Source of the DNA: Bacteroidota bacterium
Lineage (GTDB): Bacteria; Bacteroidota; Ignavibacteria; Kryptoniales; JAKASW01
NCBI GenBank assembly: GCA_021812985.1
Contig: JAKAMG010000001.1
Location: 124,001-188,000 of the forward strand
Length of the DNA: 64,000 nucleotides
Direction of reading: 5' to 3'
Below the pieces are notes generated by a model. The model searched no databases. It worked only from the letters and a program-made list of their open reading frames with translations, and was not told the origin of the DNA. Below are positions 45,571 to 53,442 of this stretch, one piece after another (positions within the stretch are counted from its first letter, which is position 1; each line of letters opens with the position of its first letter). The position numbers were made by a program, and so were the translations under genes.

Positions 45571-46098
45571 ATGAAGAACCTAGTAGTGGCGTTCGTGTTG
45601 GTTGCGGGCCTTGTGGCCTCGGCCTACGCTGACGGCAACAGCAAGCGGAATGCGACAAGCCAGATAACCGTCAACGCGGCGATCCAGAGAGGCCTGAGCA
45701 TGAATGTAGTCGGGACAAATGGCGACCTCAACACTGGTAATGCCACTTTGGATTTTGGCACGATAACGTTGAGCGGCTCAAACACAAGTGCAACGATTGC
45801 GCCTGCCAGCGGCGTGACATTGCACATTGTTGGAAACGACAACGACAACCTCACGTTCACAGTCCCTGCGAGCGTCTCGTTGAGTGGGCCTGGTGCAGCG
45901 CTCACGTTCACTCCTAACGTTCTGGGAAGCCAGACGAGCACGGGTGGAAGTCAGCTGTCGACCTCGGGCGAATCAGCCGATGGTAACGGAAACTACTACA
46001 TCTTCGTCGGCGGCGCGTTGAACAACATCCCCGCCACGCAGGCGACCGGAAGCTACAGCGGTCAGTTCAACATCGTCGTGAGCGACAATAGCCTTTGA
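45571..46098 (+). CDS. DUF4402-like fibre subunit 1
   Basis: A 175-residue exported protein with a signal peptide ending near AYA (residue 20). The mature part is an all-beta DUF4402-type domain. It has DFGTITLSG after the first strand, many Ser/Thr/Gly, and the C-terminal family pattern ATGSYSGQFNIVVS. GGAGGAACC precedes the ATG. It starts a tight run of four related small genes followed by a chaperone and an usher-like gene, so it is probably a pilus or surface-fibre subunit. The role is inference from context. Confidence 0.82.
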   Translation: MKNLVVAFVLVAGLVASAYADGNSKRNATSQITVNAAIQRGLSMNVVGTNGDLNTGNATLDFGTITLSGSNTSATIAPASGVTLHIVGNDNDNLTFTVPASVSLSGPGAALTFTPNVLGSQTSTGGSQLSTSGESADGNGNYYIFVGGALNNIPATQATGSYSGQFNIVVSDNSL

Positions 46099-46160
46099 TT
46101 TTTCGAGGTTAGAAATTGGCTATTAGAACAGTCGAAGTTCTAAAAGGGAATAGAAAGTAT

Positions 46161-46700
46161 ATGACAGCGGTCTCCAACATGAGACCGCTGTCTTTGTTTA
46201 TGTTAATCCTTTTTGCTGCGGCGGTTGTAAATGCGCAGTCCGTACGTTCGGCCTCAAGTCCCACAATAAAGGTCAGAGCGAATTTGGTGCAGGGACTTTC
46301 AATTACTCCTTCAGCAGGTAGTGATGGTTTAGGGAATATCAATCTGGGAATGGCGGCCCGAAGCACCTCAGCGGCGGCTGTCAATCCCAACTCAAGCCCT
46401 TCGGCCGGCATGATGACGATAAACGGCGAGTCGGCGATGAACGTGACGATTACATATACTCCTTCCGTCCAGCTGATGCACAATGGTCAGGGACAGTACT
46501 CGTTGAATTTCGTTCCGGATGTGGTAGGTGCCACAGGCCTGACGATGCAGCAGTCCGCCACGCGTTTACCGAGCGGCTCTGCGCTCTCCCTCGGCACTGA
46601 CGGTCGTTACTATTTCTGGCTGGGCGGCCAGGTCTACGTCCCGCCCGGGCAGGCTCCAGGCACATACACGGGTGTCTTCAATATAACAATAGGGTATTAG
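46161..46700 (+). CDS. DUF4402-like fibre subunit 2
   Basis: About 179 residues. The signal peptide ends near VNAQ. The mature domain has NINLGMAARS and the C-terminal pattern APGTYTGVFNITIGY. The start is uncertain: ATG 46161 is chosen, ATG 46179 is possible, and an in-frame TTG at 46116 sits 6 bases after GAGGT. Two of its strands, VNVTITYTP-like and YSLNFVPDVVG, align by eye with subunit 1. Confidence 0.8.
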   Translation: MTAVSNMRPLSLFMLILFAAAVVNAQSVRSASSPTIKVRANLVQGLSITPSAGSDGLGNINLGMAARSTSAAAVNPNSSPSAGMMTINGESAMNVTITYTPSVQLMHNGQGQYSLNFVPDVVGATGLTMQQSATRLPSGSALSLGTDGRYYFWLGGQVYVPPGQAPGTYTGVFNITIGY

Positions 46701-47249
46701 TTGTCGGCAAAGAGACTCCGAGTCGGGGGGACGTTCTTGTTTCTCCTCACCGGCTTCCTGTTTCTTGCCTTCCCCCCGCGGGTACTCTCGCAAAAGGTTT
46801 TGATGCACCAGCTCTCCTCGATACAGGTAGTGGTACCCTTTCCAGGATTGACGGTGTCGGTCGTCCGCCCTCTTGACTTCGGGCAAATCAAGAAAAATAC
46901 CGGGACTGAAAGAATTTCGCTTCACAGCGTCTCAAATGGCAAGTTCACGCTGACGGGTATCTATCACCGCCTTCCAGTATATATATCCGTTGAAGCTCCA
47001 CATGAACTGACCAATGGAGGAGACAGTCTGGACTTTGTTGGTTCCGCGGCGTTCAACGGGCTTGAAGACAAGACTGAAACAGCCACTCTCATCAGTGCCT
47101 CCGGAAAGAGACTTTCTTCGGTTGAACTGAACGCGAACAGGGAAGGCTGGACCGGATTTGCTTACGTATATTTGTATGGATACTTGAAGATGAGAAAAGC
47201 TCCCCCGGGAAAATACACGGGGACCTGCGTGGTTACTCTGATACTGTGA
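46701..47249 (+). CDS. DUF4402-like fibre subunit 3 (divergent)
   Basis: A 182-residue protein starting with TTG directly after the stop of subunit 2. AGGG at 46691-46694 is the ribosome site; no in-frame ATG precedes the signal peptide (ends near VLSQ). The mature part has RPLDFGQIKKNTG and ends PPGKYTGTCVVTLIL, the family pattern, but the middle is diverged. It may be a minor, tip or adaptor subunit (inference). Confidence 0.72.
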   Translation: MSAKRLRVGGTFLFLLTGFLFLAFPPRVLSQKVLMHQLSSIQVVVPFPGLTVSVVRPLDFGQIKKNTGTERISLHSVSNGKFTLTGIYHRLPVYISVEAPHELTNGGDSLDFVGSAAFNGLEDKTETATLISASGKRLSSVELNANREGWTGFAYVYLYGYLKMRKAPPGKYTGTCVVTLIL

Positions 47250-47259
47250 GGCATTGCAT

Positions 47260-47793
47260 ATGAAAAACTTCTATATAAAAAACGCCCTTCTTCGTATCCC
47301 CGTCGTCTTCCTTCTTCTGACGGGCGTATCGGTTGCCCAGGGCAAGCCGGGTAACCATGGTTCAGACGACGACACAAACATACAGGCCACTGTTCTCAAC
47401 CAGCTATCCTTCGGAACACTGATAGTCGGCAGGGATGTCCAGTCGACTGTCGGTTTCTCTGATCAGACAGCGGGTAGTGCCGTGATCACAGGGTTGAGCA
47501 GGAGCCAGACGGTTACGCTGATGTTCTCCCTCCCTCAGGATCTATATTCGGGGGCAAATCAGCTAAGCATTGGCTTCAGTTCTAACAGCGCCGCATGGTC
47601 CACATCGAATGACCTGTCAGGCGCGACCAGTTTCAACCCGAATTCTCAGATCACATTGCCTCAGTCCGCTACGTCCACCGGCAATCTGTATCTCTGGATC
47701 GGCGCCACCGTTCATGTAAGTCCTCAGCAGGCGACCGGGCAGTACCAGGGAACCATAACGGTCCAGGTGAGCGTGAACAACAACGATGATTAG
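47260..47793 (+). CDS. DUF4402-like fibre subunit 4
   Basis: A 177-residue exported protein with a signal ending near SVAQ. The mature part has LSFGTLIVGRDV and ends ATGQYQGTITVQVSVNNNDD, matching the family. ATG 47260 with GTGAGG upstream is preferred over TTG 47254. It lies 10 bp after subunit 3 and 8 bp before the chaperone gene. Confidence 0.8.
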   Translation: MKNFYIKNALLRIPVVFLLLTGVSVAQGKPGNHGSDDDTNIQATVLNQLSFGTLIVGRDVQSTVGFSDQTAGSAVITGLSRSQTVTLMFSLPQDLYSGANQLSIGFSSNSAAWSTSNDLSGATSFNPNSQITLPQSATSTGNLYLWIGATVHVSPQQATGQYQGTITVQVSVNNNDD

Positions 47794-47801
47794 GAGTTAG
47801 T

Positions 47802-48623
47802 TTGAAAAAGTTTTTATTTGTGGGCTTTGCGTCGGCGATTTTCGCGCTTCACGCCGAAGCTCAAGTCGTGATCGCGCCGCCGATAGTATTCATAAGCGAT
47901 CAGGTTCCCTTTGGGACTTTTACCGTCTCAAACGCCTCCCAGGTGCCTCAGGAGGTTGACATATCTTTCAGGTTCGGTTATCCGAACACCGATTCTTTAG
48001 GGAAGGTCTTCATGGATTACAGCGACAGCGCAACCGCCGAGAAATATTCGTGTGAGCAATGGATAAACGGCTTCCCGACCAAATTCATCCTGAACCCGGG
48101 ACAAGAGCAGGTCGTGCACATGTCGGTATCCGCGCCAGACTCATTAGCCGACGGCGAATACTGGACAAGACTGATCACAACCTCCCAACCCCAGCAGAGG
48201 TTCAGCGAGACTCTCAAGAACGGGATATCTGCGAACATAATTTTCGTGTTCACGCAGGTCACTTCTGTTGTGTATGAGAAGGGGAACCTCGGAACCCAAC
48301 TAGACTTCCAGAGTTTGCAGACCTCTCAGGACTCGGGCGCGGTGGATGTTTACGCTCATCTAAAGAGAGGAGGGAATGCACCCTTCCTCGGAGAAGTATC
48401 ACTGAGTGTTTCCGATCAGAGCGGGAACGTCGTGTACGAGAAGAAGGAATTGATTGCGGTCTACATGCAGTTCGTGAAGAAGTTCGCGGTTCCCCTTTCC
48501 AAACTCCCGCCAGGGAGCTATACCGCCTCGGTTACGGTGTCGTCCGAAAGGCCTGACATTCCGGCGGAAAACCTGATTAAGATTCTTCCGGTCACCAAGT
48601 CAACCAGTTTCTCGGTAAACTAG
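47802..48623 (+). CDS. PapD-like periplasmic pilus chaperone
   Basis: A 273-residue exported protein. The signal peptide ends near AEAQ (residue 21). The first Ig-like domain contains VSNASQVPQEVDIS, ILNPGQEQVV and SLADGEYWTRL, which parallel the chaperone motifs around the L-x-P-G-x-x-Q and DGEYR segments. A second Ig-like domain follows (about 155-270). It starts at TTG 47802 with AGGAG at 47792-47796. It would hold fibre subunits by donor-strand complementation and pass them to the usher. The family match is by motif and context. Confidence 0.75.
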   Translation: MKKFLFVGFASAIFALHAEAQVVIAPPIVFISDQVPFGTFTVSNASQVPQEVDISFRFGYPNTDSLGKVFMDYSDSATAEKYSCEQWINGFPTKFILNPGQEQVVHMSVSAPDSLADGEYWTRLITTSQPQQRFSETLKNGISANIIFVFTQVTSVVYEKGNLGTQLDFQSLQTSQDSGAVDVYAHLKRGGNAPFLGEVSLSVSDQSGNVVYEKKELIAVYMQFVKKFAVPLSKLPPGSYTASVTVSSERPDIPAENLIKILPVTKSTSFSVN

Positions 48624-48970
48624 GTAGGCACTCTACAGGATTTTCGGAAAGTCGGTGTCAAAGAACCAACGGGAGACAAGTGCGGCAGGAGAGGCCCAGG
48701 TGACTGGCCGTTGAGTGCCGCATTGAAGGAATCACAGCTTGAAAGCACGAAGGGATCGGCACTGGGAAGGGGCTCATCGCCGCTCGCTCCGGGAAATTCC
48801 CTTTGCTATCCAGTGTATCGATTGATGAAGAACGGGTTCAGAATCTCCCGCCACCCGGCTGGCGAGAAGAAGAATGACCTGTTGTGCGCTGCGCCCGGCA
48901 GCGGAACCGACACTGCTTGGCGAGGAGAATGAGGTAGGAGGCATCACTTTGCCTTCGTACAAAGTGGTAC
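48624..48970. other. Gap between chaperone and usher-like gene
   Basis: About 350 bp with no credible gene. A 73-codon frame at 48711-48932 has no domain. The gap is odd in an otherwise tight operon. It could hold a separate promoter or a decayed subunit gene. Confidence 0.4.
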
Positions 48971-51900
48971 ATGGATTACGATTCCTTTCGCACTGTTATC
49001 GCCCGCCATGCGGCGTCTGTTCTAGTTCTCATTTTCCTGATTCCGTTCGCGGCATTCCAGGGCTCGGCGCTCGCCGCTGAGCCCACCGTCTCCGTCCCCC
49101 GAGGCAAAGCCCAACCGGTAATACTCACGTTCGGCTACGGTGGCCTCGTCGACACATACGTCACCGCCCTCTATGTCGGCGATTCACTATACCTTCCCGT
49201 TCATACCCTCCTTACAGATCTTAAGATTTTCAACAAGCTTGATATGCGGCAAAAGAAAATCGAAGGGTTCTATGTCAATGAGTCGGACCGTTACGAGCTA
49301 AACTTCGCGAATCTTACCGCGACTATCGGTGGCAGAACAATCGCCGTGGATTCAACGAAGATTATTTCAGGTCCAGTCGATTTCTATCTCCTCCCCTCAG
49401 TATTCACGAAAGTCTTCGGGATGGACTTTAGCGTTGATATGAACAAGCTGGTGCTCATTCTCAAGACAAGGGTCAAGCTCCCGATCATAGCGAATTACGA
49501 GCGGAGGCTTAAGCTGCAGTACCAAACGCAGCCCCTCGGAATATTCCGTCCGCAGGCGCCGCTTCTATATCCTGAGAGGAGGGCCATGCTGAATGGTGGC
49601 GTTCTGGATTATGCCATTTCTGCATTCAGGGGAGCCAGCGGGACGTCATATTCATATAACCTCAATGCAGGAGCTCAGCTCCTCGGTGGAGACATCGAGG
49701 GCGCGATCAATGGGGGATACAGTGGCGGTATGTCCACCATATACTCGAAGCAGGTGCACTGGCGTTATACGATAGATTCCACTCGAGCCATAACCAGCGT
49801 GTCGCTCGGAAATCTGTTCAGCAACGGCTTGGTGCAGTATGACTTCAGAGGAATTCAGATAACGAACACACCGGTCCAGATTCGGAGGCTCTTCGGCAAC
49901 TACGCGTTTTCAGAAAAGGTGCAACCGGGATGGGACACGGAACTGTTCCTCAACGGGGCGAGAGTAGGTTACCAAAGAGCGGACGCTCTGGGAAACGTCC
50001 ATTATAACATCCCGCTCATCTACGGGACTTCGTTTATTCAAATGAAGACTTACGGCCCGTCGGGACAGTATCAGGAAGTAGACAAGAGGCTTCAGATTCC
50101 ATTCACTCTCGTGCCTGACAAGGAATTTGATTACACCCTGAGCGCGGGGCCGCTTGCCAACTCGGACAGCAGCATTGTTCAGTTCAATGCCGCTTACGGT
50201 ATTTCAGATTGGATAACCGACCGGGTCGGCATCGACTATCTTCAGAGCAAGGTTGACAAGAGACCGGTTCCCTACAACGCTCTCGCATTTCGTCTCGGGA
50301 GCCCTTACATAATAAGCCTTCAGGCTGCTCCGGCTTACGGATATGAGGTCTCGCTTAATGCCATCTATCCGTCCCAGGCCTCGTACGGATTCACATACGA
50401 CAAATTCAAGGACAACGCCCTGTATAACCCGTCGTTCAAAAGGGAGCAACTCTTCGCGACGGCCTACCTCCCTGTGTCAATTGGGGGGAACACTCTTAAC
50501 TTTAGCTTCTCGGGAACCGGACAGACATTCAAGGACGGAAGCGAAAACGTGACTTATTCATTCGGGTCGAACGCGAGCGTGAGCAGACTTAACTTATCGG
50601 CAAACTACACTGGCTCTTACCAGCGCTCGGCAAGCTCTAATCTCACGATTGGCAGGACCCTCTCCGCTTCATTCCTTTACTCGTTCTTCTTTGGGTCGGG
50701 TCCTTTGAGCTTCCTGAACGGGACTCTCTCCGGAATCTCAGGAGACTACGATATTGCCGATAGAGCGCTGACAAGCATGAGGCTCGACCTGTCCCAGTAC
50801 TTCGGCGGGTATGTATCGGTCGAGCTCTACGCGCAAAGGGACTTCCTGAACCGCTCGAACTCTTTCAATCTGCAGGTTACTTGCGACCTACCGTTCGTAC
50901 AGACGTCGTCGTCGGCAAGTTACCAGGGTAATCAGTCGTCATTTTCACAATATGTCAGCGGTTCCCTCGGCTACGATTCCCATTATGACAAATTCCTTTT
51001 CAACGGCCTGCACTGGGTCGGTCAATCCGCCGTCTCAATGCGTATGTATCTGGATGTGAATCAGGATGGAAATTTCGACAAGGGAGATGAACTCATAAAG
51101 GACGGGAGTATCACGCTCAGACAGGCCGCGTCATCTGATCTCTTTACGTCCGGGATCATAAGAGCGTGGAACCTGATGCCGTACTCGCAATATAGCGCTG
51201 ACATACAATCAGGTTCCCTGAGAAATCCACTCTGGATGCCGGACAGAGAATCGTTCTCGTTCATGACAGATCCGAATACCTATAAGGCCATAGATATCCC
51301 TTATTACTCCGCGGGAGTCATACAGGGAAGGGCTGTCCAGATAGACAAAGGGAAGGAGACGGCGGTCCCCGGACTCGAAGTGATTGTAGAGGCAAAGCAT
51401 GGTCTCTTCAGGAAGACTATTTCAGCCTTCAATGACGGCAGCCTCTACTACGTGGGCATCCCGCCGGGCGAATACCGCATTTATGTGGACCCCAGCCAGC
51501 TAGATGCTCTCGATGATCAGTCGGAACCGGCCTCGCGGGACTTCACGGTTAAGTTCAAAAGAGCCGGTGACTTCATAAAGGGGCTGACTTTCCAGCTCAG
51601 CCGCAGGGTAGAGGTTGTGCAGACCGCGCCCCCTCCGATTGTCGAACCGAAGAAATATGTGGTACAGCTTGGGGCCTTCACGACGGCCAAGAGGGCAGAG
51701 GAGTTTGCCCACGCGACGCGGCCGAAGATAGATCGTAGGATCAGCGTCATATACAACAAGGGATCTCATCTCTATTCAGTCCAGCTTGATACGATGAGTG
51801 AAAGCAGGAAAGCCTATACGCTCGTTCAGGATCTGATATATAACAAGGGGATACGCGACGCGTTCGTCATGGTGATACCTGCGCCACGGGTAGAGTACAC

Positions 51901-52372
51901 ATTCGCAGTCAGGATCGGGATGTTCCGGTCGCTCTCTTCGGCGATAGCCTTCGCGAACGATGCACGCTCTCTCCTCGGTGTAGGGGCAAGAGTGGATTTC
52001 AACTCGCCGCTGAGGATTTTCGAAGTGACGGCGGGGTCGTTCGGCACGAGAAAGGCCGCGAAGGCACTTCTCGAAAACATCAACTCAAATCATGTTTACA
52101 GGAACGCTTCTATTGTCGTCACGGGCCATTATCCGTTGAAGAGATACGCGGTGCTACTCAACACGTTCGAGAGTTATAACTCCGCGGAAAATTACGCGCG
52201 CGGCATCTTCAATAACCACAAGGTAGACGCGTTGATCGATTTCGATCCGGCGACGGTGGAATTCAGGGTCTTCACAATGCCGATGCAGCACTACGACGAG
52301 GCCGAGAGGGAACTCGAGTCAATTCGACCGCTCAAGCTGTTCAACTTGCCGACGGTGATCCTCGTCAGGTAA
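48971..52372 (+). CDS. Usher-like outer-membrane protein with three SPOR domains
   Basis: An 1133-residue protein with a signal peptide (ends near ALAAEP). The N-terminal region (about 45-175) resembles an usher periplasmic domain. A plug/middle-like part (about 300-375) has ELFLNGARVGYQRAD and GNVHYNIPL. A long barrel-like stretch runs to about 670. EF-hand-like DVNQDGNFDKGDE is near 695-707 and a carboxypeptidase-regulatory-like beta domain near 780-870. Three SPOR-type domains start near 894 (KKYVVQLGAF), 975 (FAVRIGMF) and 1056 (RYAVLLNTF). SPOR domains bind denuded peptidoglycan. Ordinary ushers end with two small beta domains instead. Predicted role: secretion and wall-anchored assembly of the DUF4402 fibre. 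Confidence 0.75.
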   Translation: MDYDSFRTVIARHAASVLVLIFLIPFAAFQGSALAAEPTVSVPRGKAQPVILTFGYGGLVDTYVTALYVGDSLYLPVHTLLTDLKIFNKLDMRQKKIEGFYVNESDRYELNFANLTATIGGRTIAVDSTKIISGPVDFYLLPSVFTKVFGMDFSVDMNKLVLILKTRVKLPIIANYERRLKLQYQTQPLGIFRPQAPLLYPERRAMLNGGVLDYAISAFRGASGTSYSYNLNAGAQLLGGDIEGAINGGYSGGMSTIYSKQVHWRYTIDSTRAITSVSLGNLFSNGLVQYDFRGIQITNTPVQIRRLFGNYAFSEKVQPGWDTELFLNGARVGYQRADALGNVHYNIPLIYGTSFIQMKTYGPSGQYQEVDKRLQIPFTLVPDKEFDYTLSAGPLANSDSSIVQFNAAYGISDWITDRVGIDYLQSKVDKRPVPYNALAFRLGSPYIISLQAAPAYGYEVSLNAIYPSQASYGFTYDKFKDNALYNPSFKREQLFATAYLPVSIGGNTLNFSFSGTGQTFKDGSENVTYSFGSNASVSRLNLSANYTGSYQRSASSNLTIGRTLSASFLYSFFFGSGPLSFLNGTLSGISGDYDIADRALTSMRLDLSQYFGGYVSVELYAQRDFLNRSNSFNLQVTCDLPFVQTSSSASYQGNQSSFSQYVSGSLGYDSHYDKFLFNGLHWVGQSAVSMRMYLDVNQDGNFDKGDELIKDGSITLRQAASSDLFTSGIIRAWNLMPYSQYSADIQSGSLRNPLWMPDRESFSFMTDPNTYKAIDIPYYSAGVIQGRAVQIDKGKETAVPGLEVIVEAKHGLFRKTISAFNDGSLYYVGIPPGEYRIYVDPSQLDALDDQSEPASRDFTVKFKRAGDFIKGLTFQLSRRVEVVQTAPPPIVEPKKYVVQLGAFTTAKRAEEFAHATRPKIDRRISVIYNKGSHLYSVQLDTMSESRKAYTLVQDLIYNKGIRDAFVMVIPAPRVEYTFAVRIGMFRSLSSAIAFANDARSLLGVGARVDFNSPLRIFEVTAGSFGTRKAAKALLENINSNHVYRNASIVVTGHYPLKRYAVLLNTFESYNSAENYARGIFNNHKVDALIDFDPATVEFRVFTMPMQHYDEAERELESIRPLKLFNLPTVILVR

Positions 52373-52551: not shown

Positions 52552-53442
52552 ATGGACACTGCTCGGAGACTGAATCGGGGGATTGTAAAGAGATTCCTTC
52601 TCAGTCTTGTCCTGTTAATTTCACTCTTCATCGCGTTCACTTCCGTTTGGGCGGCATCGATTTTCGGATCGATTGCCAATCGTCTCCATTCCGCCGGATG
52701 GTCTGCGGCATCGGCCGACGAAATAATGCAGCCGAATGAGTCTGTTACTTTTGAGGCGAGCTATTTCATATTCAAGCTCGGATCTGTTACCTTCCAATTT
52801 CTCGGCAGCTGTGAATTCAATGGAAAGCCGGCGTACCACATTCGGGCTTCAATCGATTCGTACAGCGGTATCCCGTTCGTTAATTTTCACGGCGTGTATG
52901 AGACTTACGCGGACACTTCGACGCTCACTTGTCTCTCTACTTCCAACGACCAAATGGACGGCAAAGATTGGATTCACACGAGCTACGTCTTGAATTATGC
53001 CGGGAAGAATCTAGTCTGGCAGCAGTCAAGAGAGGGACAGGTGATGAAGACTGTGGACCTTCCCCTTGACACCACGTACACAGACGGCCTAAGCTTTTTT
53101 TATTTTGTGAGACGTGCCTGCCTGAATGCCGGCGGCGCGCCGAGGACGTTGACCGTCCCCATTATTTCAGATACCAACCGCTCAACTGTAGAGCTGACGA
53201 TAGATGAAGCGCGGGAACCATGCGAAGTCACAGCGTACGATTTTCCCATTGAGGCGGAGAGATTGTCCGGTCACATCAACTTTAAAGGTACGTTCGGTGT
53301 GACTGGTGATTTCACCGGTTGGATCTCTGATGACCCGGCCGAGGTCCCTCTCCGGGCGGACCTTAAGGTTCTGATCGGAAGCATAGGAGTAAAACTGAAA
53401 GAGATACGGCGCGAGGGGTGGGTGCCGCCTCGTGCGGAATAG
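52552..53442 (+). CDS. DUF3108 envelope protein
   Basis: A 296-residue protein with an N-terminal signal or anchor (about 12-35). The beta-rich body has SVTFEASYFIFKLGSVTFQ and GKPAYHIRASIDSYSGI, matching DUF3108. The function is unknown. It follows the usher-like gene by 180 bp in the same direction. A sigma-54-like site lies just upstream. It may assist the fibre system or be independent. Confidence 0.8.
   Translation: MDTARRLNRGIVKRFLLSLVLLISLFIAFTSVWAASIFGSIANRLHSAGWSAASADEIMQPNESVTFEASYFIFKLGSVTFQFLGSCEFNGKPAYHIRASIDSYSGIPFVNFHGVYETYADTSTLTCLSTSNDQMDGKDWIHTSYVLNYAGKNLVWQQSREGQVMKTVDLPLDTTYTDGLSFFYFVRRACLNAGGAPRTLTVPIISDTNRSTVELTIDEAREPCEVTAYDFPIEAERLSGHINFKGTFGVTGDFTGWISDDPAEVPLRADLKVLIGSIGVKLKEIRREGWVPPRAE

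Follow-up and report, generated by a model that had tools for sequence, protein, structure and literature searches.

Does the gene cluster at 45571-52372 of a 64,000-nt window from a Bacteroidota genome encode a chaperone-usher (CU) machine and, if so, of which kind? The window is the whole stretch of DNA that was analysed, its numbering is used for all coordinates, and the source genome comprises 3.5 Mb in 64 contigs. Six open reading frames (ORFs) on the + strand span the cluster; the first four (A-D) encode exported proteins of 175-194 aa and are followed by genes for proteins of 273 and 1,133 aa. An earlier note on this DNA had read them as DUF4402-type subunits, a PapD-like chaperone and an usher-like outer-membrane protein. 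Based on structure, homology and gene order, the locus is a widespread variant of the CU pathway, and we consider it very probable that it represents a divergent, previously unclassified CU assembly system (Table 1).

The usher-like protein and its chaperone

The 1,133-aa protein has no match to the Pfam family Usher (PF00577) at an E value of 1. The same family was matched by none of 35 ushers at E 0.01, is absent from the families listed for 26 others, and scored above cut-off in none of the 395 Bacteroidota genomes that we surveyed. Four usher relatives match PF00577 below cut-off (2e-5 to 7e-4), within the same gene. The assignment as an usher was tested for a large pore and a plug using an AlphaFold2 (AF2) model, which was built from a 13-sequence alignment and for which strand count and insert position were taken from the DSSP list. 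The model gives a barrel of 24 strands into which a plug is inserted, in keeping with the reading of the earlier note, and solved ushers were its closest structures. Specifically, the top 18 PDB matches in Foldseek were all FimD/PapC chains (E 8e-29 to 3e-14, target-normalised template modelling [TM] score 0.42-0.62), while the next, unrelated match reached only 2e-7.

Profile-profile comparisons using hhalign gave a matching result. The usher alignment scored 96.3% over 523 columns against six K-12 ushers, and a broader alignment scored 98.5% (E 3e-15, 549 columns) with plug aligned on plug, while the control comparison with the large K-12 barrels FhuA, BtuB, FepA and LptD gave 0.3%. This signal appeared only when six or seven K-12 homologues were aligned; comparing the family with a single FimD or FimC sequence gave nothing. 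Because the AF2 model, Foldseek and the profile-profile comparison agree, we regard the large protein as an usher despite the PF00577 miss. We note that searching PDB sequences with profiles of the usher, the chaperone and the subunits returned no pilus protein; weak matches to a tail spike and to antibody chains were discounted, as they look like low-complexity or signal-peptide matches.

The chaperone of the window has no Pfam match above cut-off. Among its relatives, 13 of 24 match PapD_N at E ≤0.1 (best 4e-5), and two plasmid-borne ones do so above cut-off. A model of a relative's chaperone (locus L072) matched CsuC, FimC, Caf1M, YadV and EcpB in Foldseek, with TM scores to target of ~0.5-0.64 (0.60 for CsuC, one of the best matches), and hhalign against an alignment of K-12 homologues gave 86.6%. 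The fold together with the relatives' PapD_N matches supports that the protein is PapD-like, as had been proposed. A proline is the sole invariant residue across the CU superfamily (PMC4654587); P92 of the window chaperone is present in 67 of 67 chaperones and aligns with the proline of EcpB, EcpE and FimC. R123, which is present in 54 of the 67, is a plausible counterpart of the strand F1 arginine of archaic and alternative chaperones (Arg89 of CsuC/EcpB), but the alignment register is uncertain, being off by two residues against EcpB. In the distant chaperones of loci L040, L147, L160 and L174, Arg stands at the W121 position and His replaces R123, opposite to the arrangement in the window chaperone, and this exchange could be a swapped anchor for the subunit carboxylate. 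Two further variants were seen: a chaperone-like domain within a 2,246-aa ORF (L151:9101-15838) and two chaperone genes together in one locus (L144:2961-5896).

DUF4402 subunits and predicted fibre formation

The four consecutive exported proteins proved to be DUF4402-type as claimed: A, B and D match the Pfam family, C falls below its cut-off, and all four match a family hidden Markov model (HMM) at 2e-34 to 5e-50, the HMM having been seeded from 51 relatives that include these four. The C-terminal G-x-Y-x-G pattern noted earlier was recovered in a 35-member subunit alignment, in which G160 and Y162 never vary and at least 90% of members have G164. None of these 35 subunits matches SCPU (PF05229), nor was a match found genome-wide, in a search whose control was also silent.

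Extension lengths were counted up to a conserved FG motif from mature-protein starts that are rule-based signal-cleavage estimates. Subunits encoded upstream have a median of 28 residues ahead of the motif, including an alternating stretch such as SQITVNAAIQRGLSM, and chaperone-proximal subunits a median of 21. An extension of ≤19 residues was found in 22 of 45 chaperone-proximal subunits vs 5 of 103 others, a comparison in which the p-value ignores relatedness. Within the genus of the window the split is clear, as it is in many genomes of the class. D itself has 24 residues ahead of the motif, in which a stretch of polar and charged residues takes the place of the alternating one. Because D is without a donor extension, it is the likely tip subunit. 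In most relatives in the genus, D has two domains, the first without and the second with an extension. We modelled such a case for L072 as a read-through chain, in which the stop codons between genes were taken as residues; this is a modelling device and no claim about translation. In the model, the extension of the second domain is a 15-residue strand (167-181) right behind the last strand of domain one (146-160), a predicted arrangement that fits donor-strand completion in cis. Foldseek matches of this chain in the PDB include the donor-strand-linked pilin fusions 3f85, 3f83 and 5y9h.

The predicted hairpin after the first gene lies just 3' of A and overlaps the start of B, including signal-peptide codons of this second gene. 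In relatives, a strong hairpin recurs at this first junction, with stem sequences that differ and include paired changes; the best hairpin there has a median energy of -19.0 kcal/mol vs -14.5 at other junctions. Since A is first in the gene order and is followed by this attenuator-like hairpin, it is likely produced in excess, which suggests that A is the overproduced major subunit.

Taken together, these features lead us to infer the following pathway. DUF4402 subunits would be exported to the periplasm and kept there by the PapD-like chaperone, which would lend its G1 strand to the subunit. Chaperone-subunit complexes would then be handed to the usher, modelled as a plugged outer-membrane pore of 24 strands. 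At the usher, the N-terminal extension of the incoming subunit would displace the chaperone strand in the previous one by donor-strand exchange, as the extensions suggest, and the fibre would emerge tip first, with D as the likely tip and A as the likely major subunit, from a platform probably anchored to peptidoglycan by the SPOR tail of the usher.

Several observations weigh against this pathway. No fibre has been seen. Confidence in the usher model is moderate (predicted local distance difference test [pLDDT] 68, predicted TM [pTM] 0.45, from a 13-row alignment), and the L072 subunit-chaperone read-through model (pTM 0.42) does not resolve the contact between the two proteins. The DUF4402 subunit profile found no sequence match to solved pilins in the PDB search. 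Finally, the tip signature does not hold for other Bacteroidota families, in which the chaperone-proximal subunit retains its extension.

The product could differ from pili. The CU systems of the F1 antigen and of the Myxococcus spore coat form a thin amorphous coat or capsule-like layer, and donor-strand polymers are not required to be rods. The same machine may therefore build such a layer instead of pili with a defined tip, a possibility to which the several related loci with only one or two subunit genes would conform. We consider it unlikely, however, given a chaperone-proximal subunit without donor extension that in the genus of the window is often two-domain, like a tip adhesin, and a hairpin after gene 1 that suggests a major/minor stoichiometry. 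It is far less probable that the large protein is a secretion pore for soluble DUF4402 proteins that the chaperone only keeps unfolded, with no polymer formed; the conditional standing of fibre formation leaves room for such a pore, but the usher-specific plug and C-terminal domains, the PapD-type chaperone and the alternating N-terminal extensions point to polymerisation.

Two sets of DUF4402 genes outside this order were observed. In the same genome, DUF4402 genes are found remote from chaperone and usher genes (L050:7782-8822, L051:9842-10447 and L052:8269-9323), one of them for a 346-aa two-domain protein; these are possibly extra subunits or alternative tips. Just 3' of several ushers, there is a gene for an exported DUF4402-like protein of ~119-131 aa (L058:4949-5335, L074:11534-11920, L075:8850-9206 and L076:11066-11458), possibly an anchor or terminator subunit.

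Distribution, gene order and the SPOR tail

To determine how widespread the system is, we searched the 395 genomes with an usher HMM at E 1e-10. Matches were obtained in 105 genomes, of which 18 matched through SPOR alone; these were discarded by hand, and 87 remained. The earlier note had called a CU-like machine unexpected in Bacteroidota; in fact, it is frequent there, and what stands of this remark is that the system goes unrecognised. DUF4402 occurs in 62 of the genomes, and all 62 also carry an usher-family gene (Fisher p 2e-52, descriptive, as the genomes are related). The search for the same gene order in related genomes likewise had a positive outcome, with subunit, chaperone and usher genes in this order in nearly all fetched related loci and few exceptions. 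Because the order recurs in relatives and co-occurrence is 62/62, the association exceeds chance. That DUF4402 genes go together with chaperone and usher genes in genomes suggests that DUF4402 proteins function as pilus subunits; we found no mention of DUF4402 in the literature searched, which covered few subscription papers.

The full set is also present on plasmids of Polaromonas (two), Sphingopyxis and Pseudoalteromonas, and therefore the system extends beyond Bacteroidota. Current databases misname the usher: in RefSeq, the plasmid-borne ones are labelled 'carboxypeptidase(-like) regulatory domain-containing protein'. One of the chaperones is entered there as 'fimbria/pilus periplasmic chaperone'. 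A scan of viral contigs found no relative. The genome of the window has a second usher-chaperone-subunit set at a contig end (G000:C42, L049:59-5057), with an usher that is 40% identical to that of the window.

Given this conservation, it is hardly credible that decay or loss of function has reduced the locus to a remnant. The gap of 348 bp between the chaperone and usher genes, which has no detectable similarity to the gaps of relatives, could be taken as a sign of decay, but all six ORFs are intact, signal peptides are found, and members of the genus share both gene order and sequence conservation.

The SPOR tail, like the divergence from PF00577 and the phylum-wide distribution, goes beyond what the earlier note described. 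AF2 models the tail as three beta-alpha-beta-beta-alpha-beta repeats. Tails differ among relatives: many ushers are tail-less at ~850-900 aa, and others have SPOR, OmpA or TPR domains. In Pseudoalteromonas xiamenensis, the set of subunit, chaperone and usher genes is flanked by two stand-alone SPOR genes, one of which directly follows the usher gene. SPOR domains bind the denuded glycans of peptidoglycan, which makes a tether the likely role of the tail; it probably holds the usher platform to peptidoglycan. The fusion of a peptidoglycan-binding tail to an usher appears to be new: papers that mention both ushers and SPOR domains concern, by title, other topics, in a search from which subscription papers were mostly absent, so an earlier description is possible. 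We see about even chances that the system forms an unrecognised CU class across Bacteroidota and Pseudomonadota, with DUF4402 pilins and a platform tied to the cell wall by usher-fused SPOR or OmpA domains or, as in Pseudoalteromonas, by adjacent SPOR proteins. Given the affinity of SPOR domains for denuded glycans, such a class could have its pilus assembly placed at division sites.

If these readings are correct, ~1/5 of the sampled Bacteroidota genomes carry a CU system overlooked by PF00577-based annotation, DUF4402 gains a function, and the CU pathway reaches a further phylum, making its evolution testable. They would also raise the concrete question of whether the cell-wall tether of the usher controls the site of pilus building.

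As for the surroundings, the DUF3108 gene adjoins the usher gene in the three closest relatives only. No Rfam families were found within the locus, and sigma-70-like sites were no more frequent in it than by chance.

Table 1. Features of the locus, in window coordinates
Feature	Position	Strand	Evidence
Subunit A, exported DUF4402, predicted major fibre subunit; extension SQITVNAAIQRGLSM	45571..46098	+	Pfam DUF4402 5e-10
GC-rich 12-bp hairpin with T-rich tail, probable attenuator favouring A expression	46163..46192	+	Terminator scan; hairpin at same junction in relatives
Subunit B, exported DUF4402 with N-terminal extension	46161..46700 (likelier ATG 46161; longest ORF from 46116)	+	Pfam DUF4402 2.6e-10
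Subunit C, exported divergent DUF4402 with N-terminal extension	46701..47249	+	Pfam 0.0026, under cut-off; family HMM 4e-43
Subunit D, DUF4402, chaperone-adjacent, without alternating N-terminal extension, predicted tip	47254..47793 (likelier ATG 47260)	+	Pfam 7e-7
PapD-like periplasmic chaperone, 273 aa, two immunoglobulin (Ig) domains, G1-like alternating strand, P92	47802..48623	+	PapD_N in relatives; Foldseek on relative L072; hhalign
Usher-like outer-membrane assembly platform, 1133 aa	48971..52372	+	AF2; Foldseek; hhalign vs control barrels
Usher N-terminal periplasmic domain, aa 48-165	49112..49465	+	AF2 secondary structure; Cu_amine_oxidN1-like match in relatives
Usher beta-barrel, 6 strands (aa 207-298) + 18 strands (aa 386-669)	49589..50977	+	AF2 secondary structure
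Plug-like six-strand domain, aa 310-375, between barrel strands 6 and 7	49898..50095	+	AF2; aligned to K-12 usher plug
Two C-terminal beta domains, aa 686-878, CTD1/CTD2 equivalents, CarboxypepD_reg/SdrD_B-like	51026..51604	+	AF2; Pfam in relatives
Three SPOR-like repeats, aa 893-1132, predicted peptidoglycan-binding tail	51647..52366	+	Pfam SPOR 1.8e-10; AF2 secondary structure
DUF3108 gene, immediately 3' of usher	52552..53442	+	Pfam

Comparison with known pilus systems

Archaic systems have been recorded for Proteobacteria, Cyanobacteria and Deinococcus-Thermus (PMC4654587), and a 2016 survey found fimbrial ushers in Proteobacteria, Spirochaetae, Cyanobacteria and Deinococcus/Thermus, with Bacteroidetes not included (PMC4827864). 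With archaic (sigma) CU pili such as Csu, the system of the window has in common the subunits-chaperone-usher gene set, the usher and chaperone folds, a wide distribution and an N-terminal donor-like extension with alternating residues. It differs in that its subunits, members of Pfam DUF4402 (PF14352), are not SCPU proteins and its usher misses PF00577; moreover, an usher SPOR tail is not recorded for archaic systems, and Bacteroidetes are not among their phyla (PMC4654587, PMC4827864).

The classical CU pili, i.e., type 1 (FimCD) and P pili (PapDC), have the same 24-strand usher with a plug after strand 6, an N-terminal and two C-terminal domains, and a two-domain Ig chaperone, whereas identity over the Foldseek alignments is only ~12-15%, the subunit family is another one, and the window usher carries in addition a predicted peptidoglycan-binding tail at its C terminus. 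The type V (FimA/Mfa1) fimbriae of Bacteroidia would share donor-strand-type fibres, if the window system forms a fibre, and come from the same phylum. P_gingi_FimA and Mfa_like_1 gave no match in the genome of the window, while a control genome does match. Unlike the window system, type V fimbriae are lipoprotein-based and are built without chaperone or usher.

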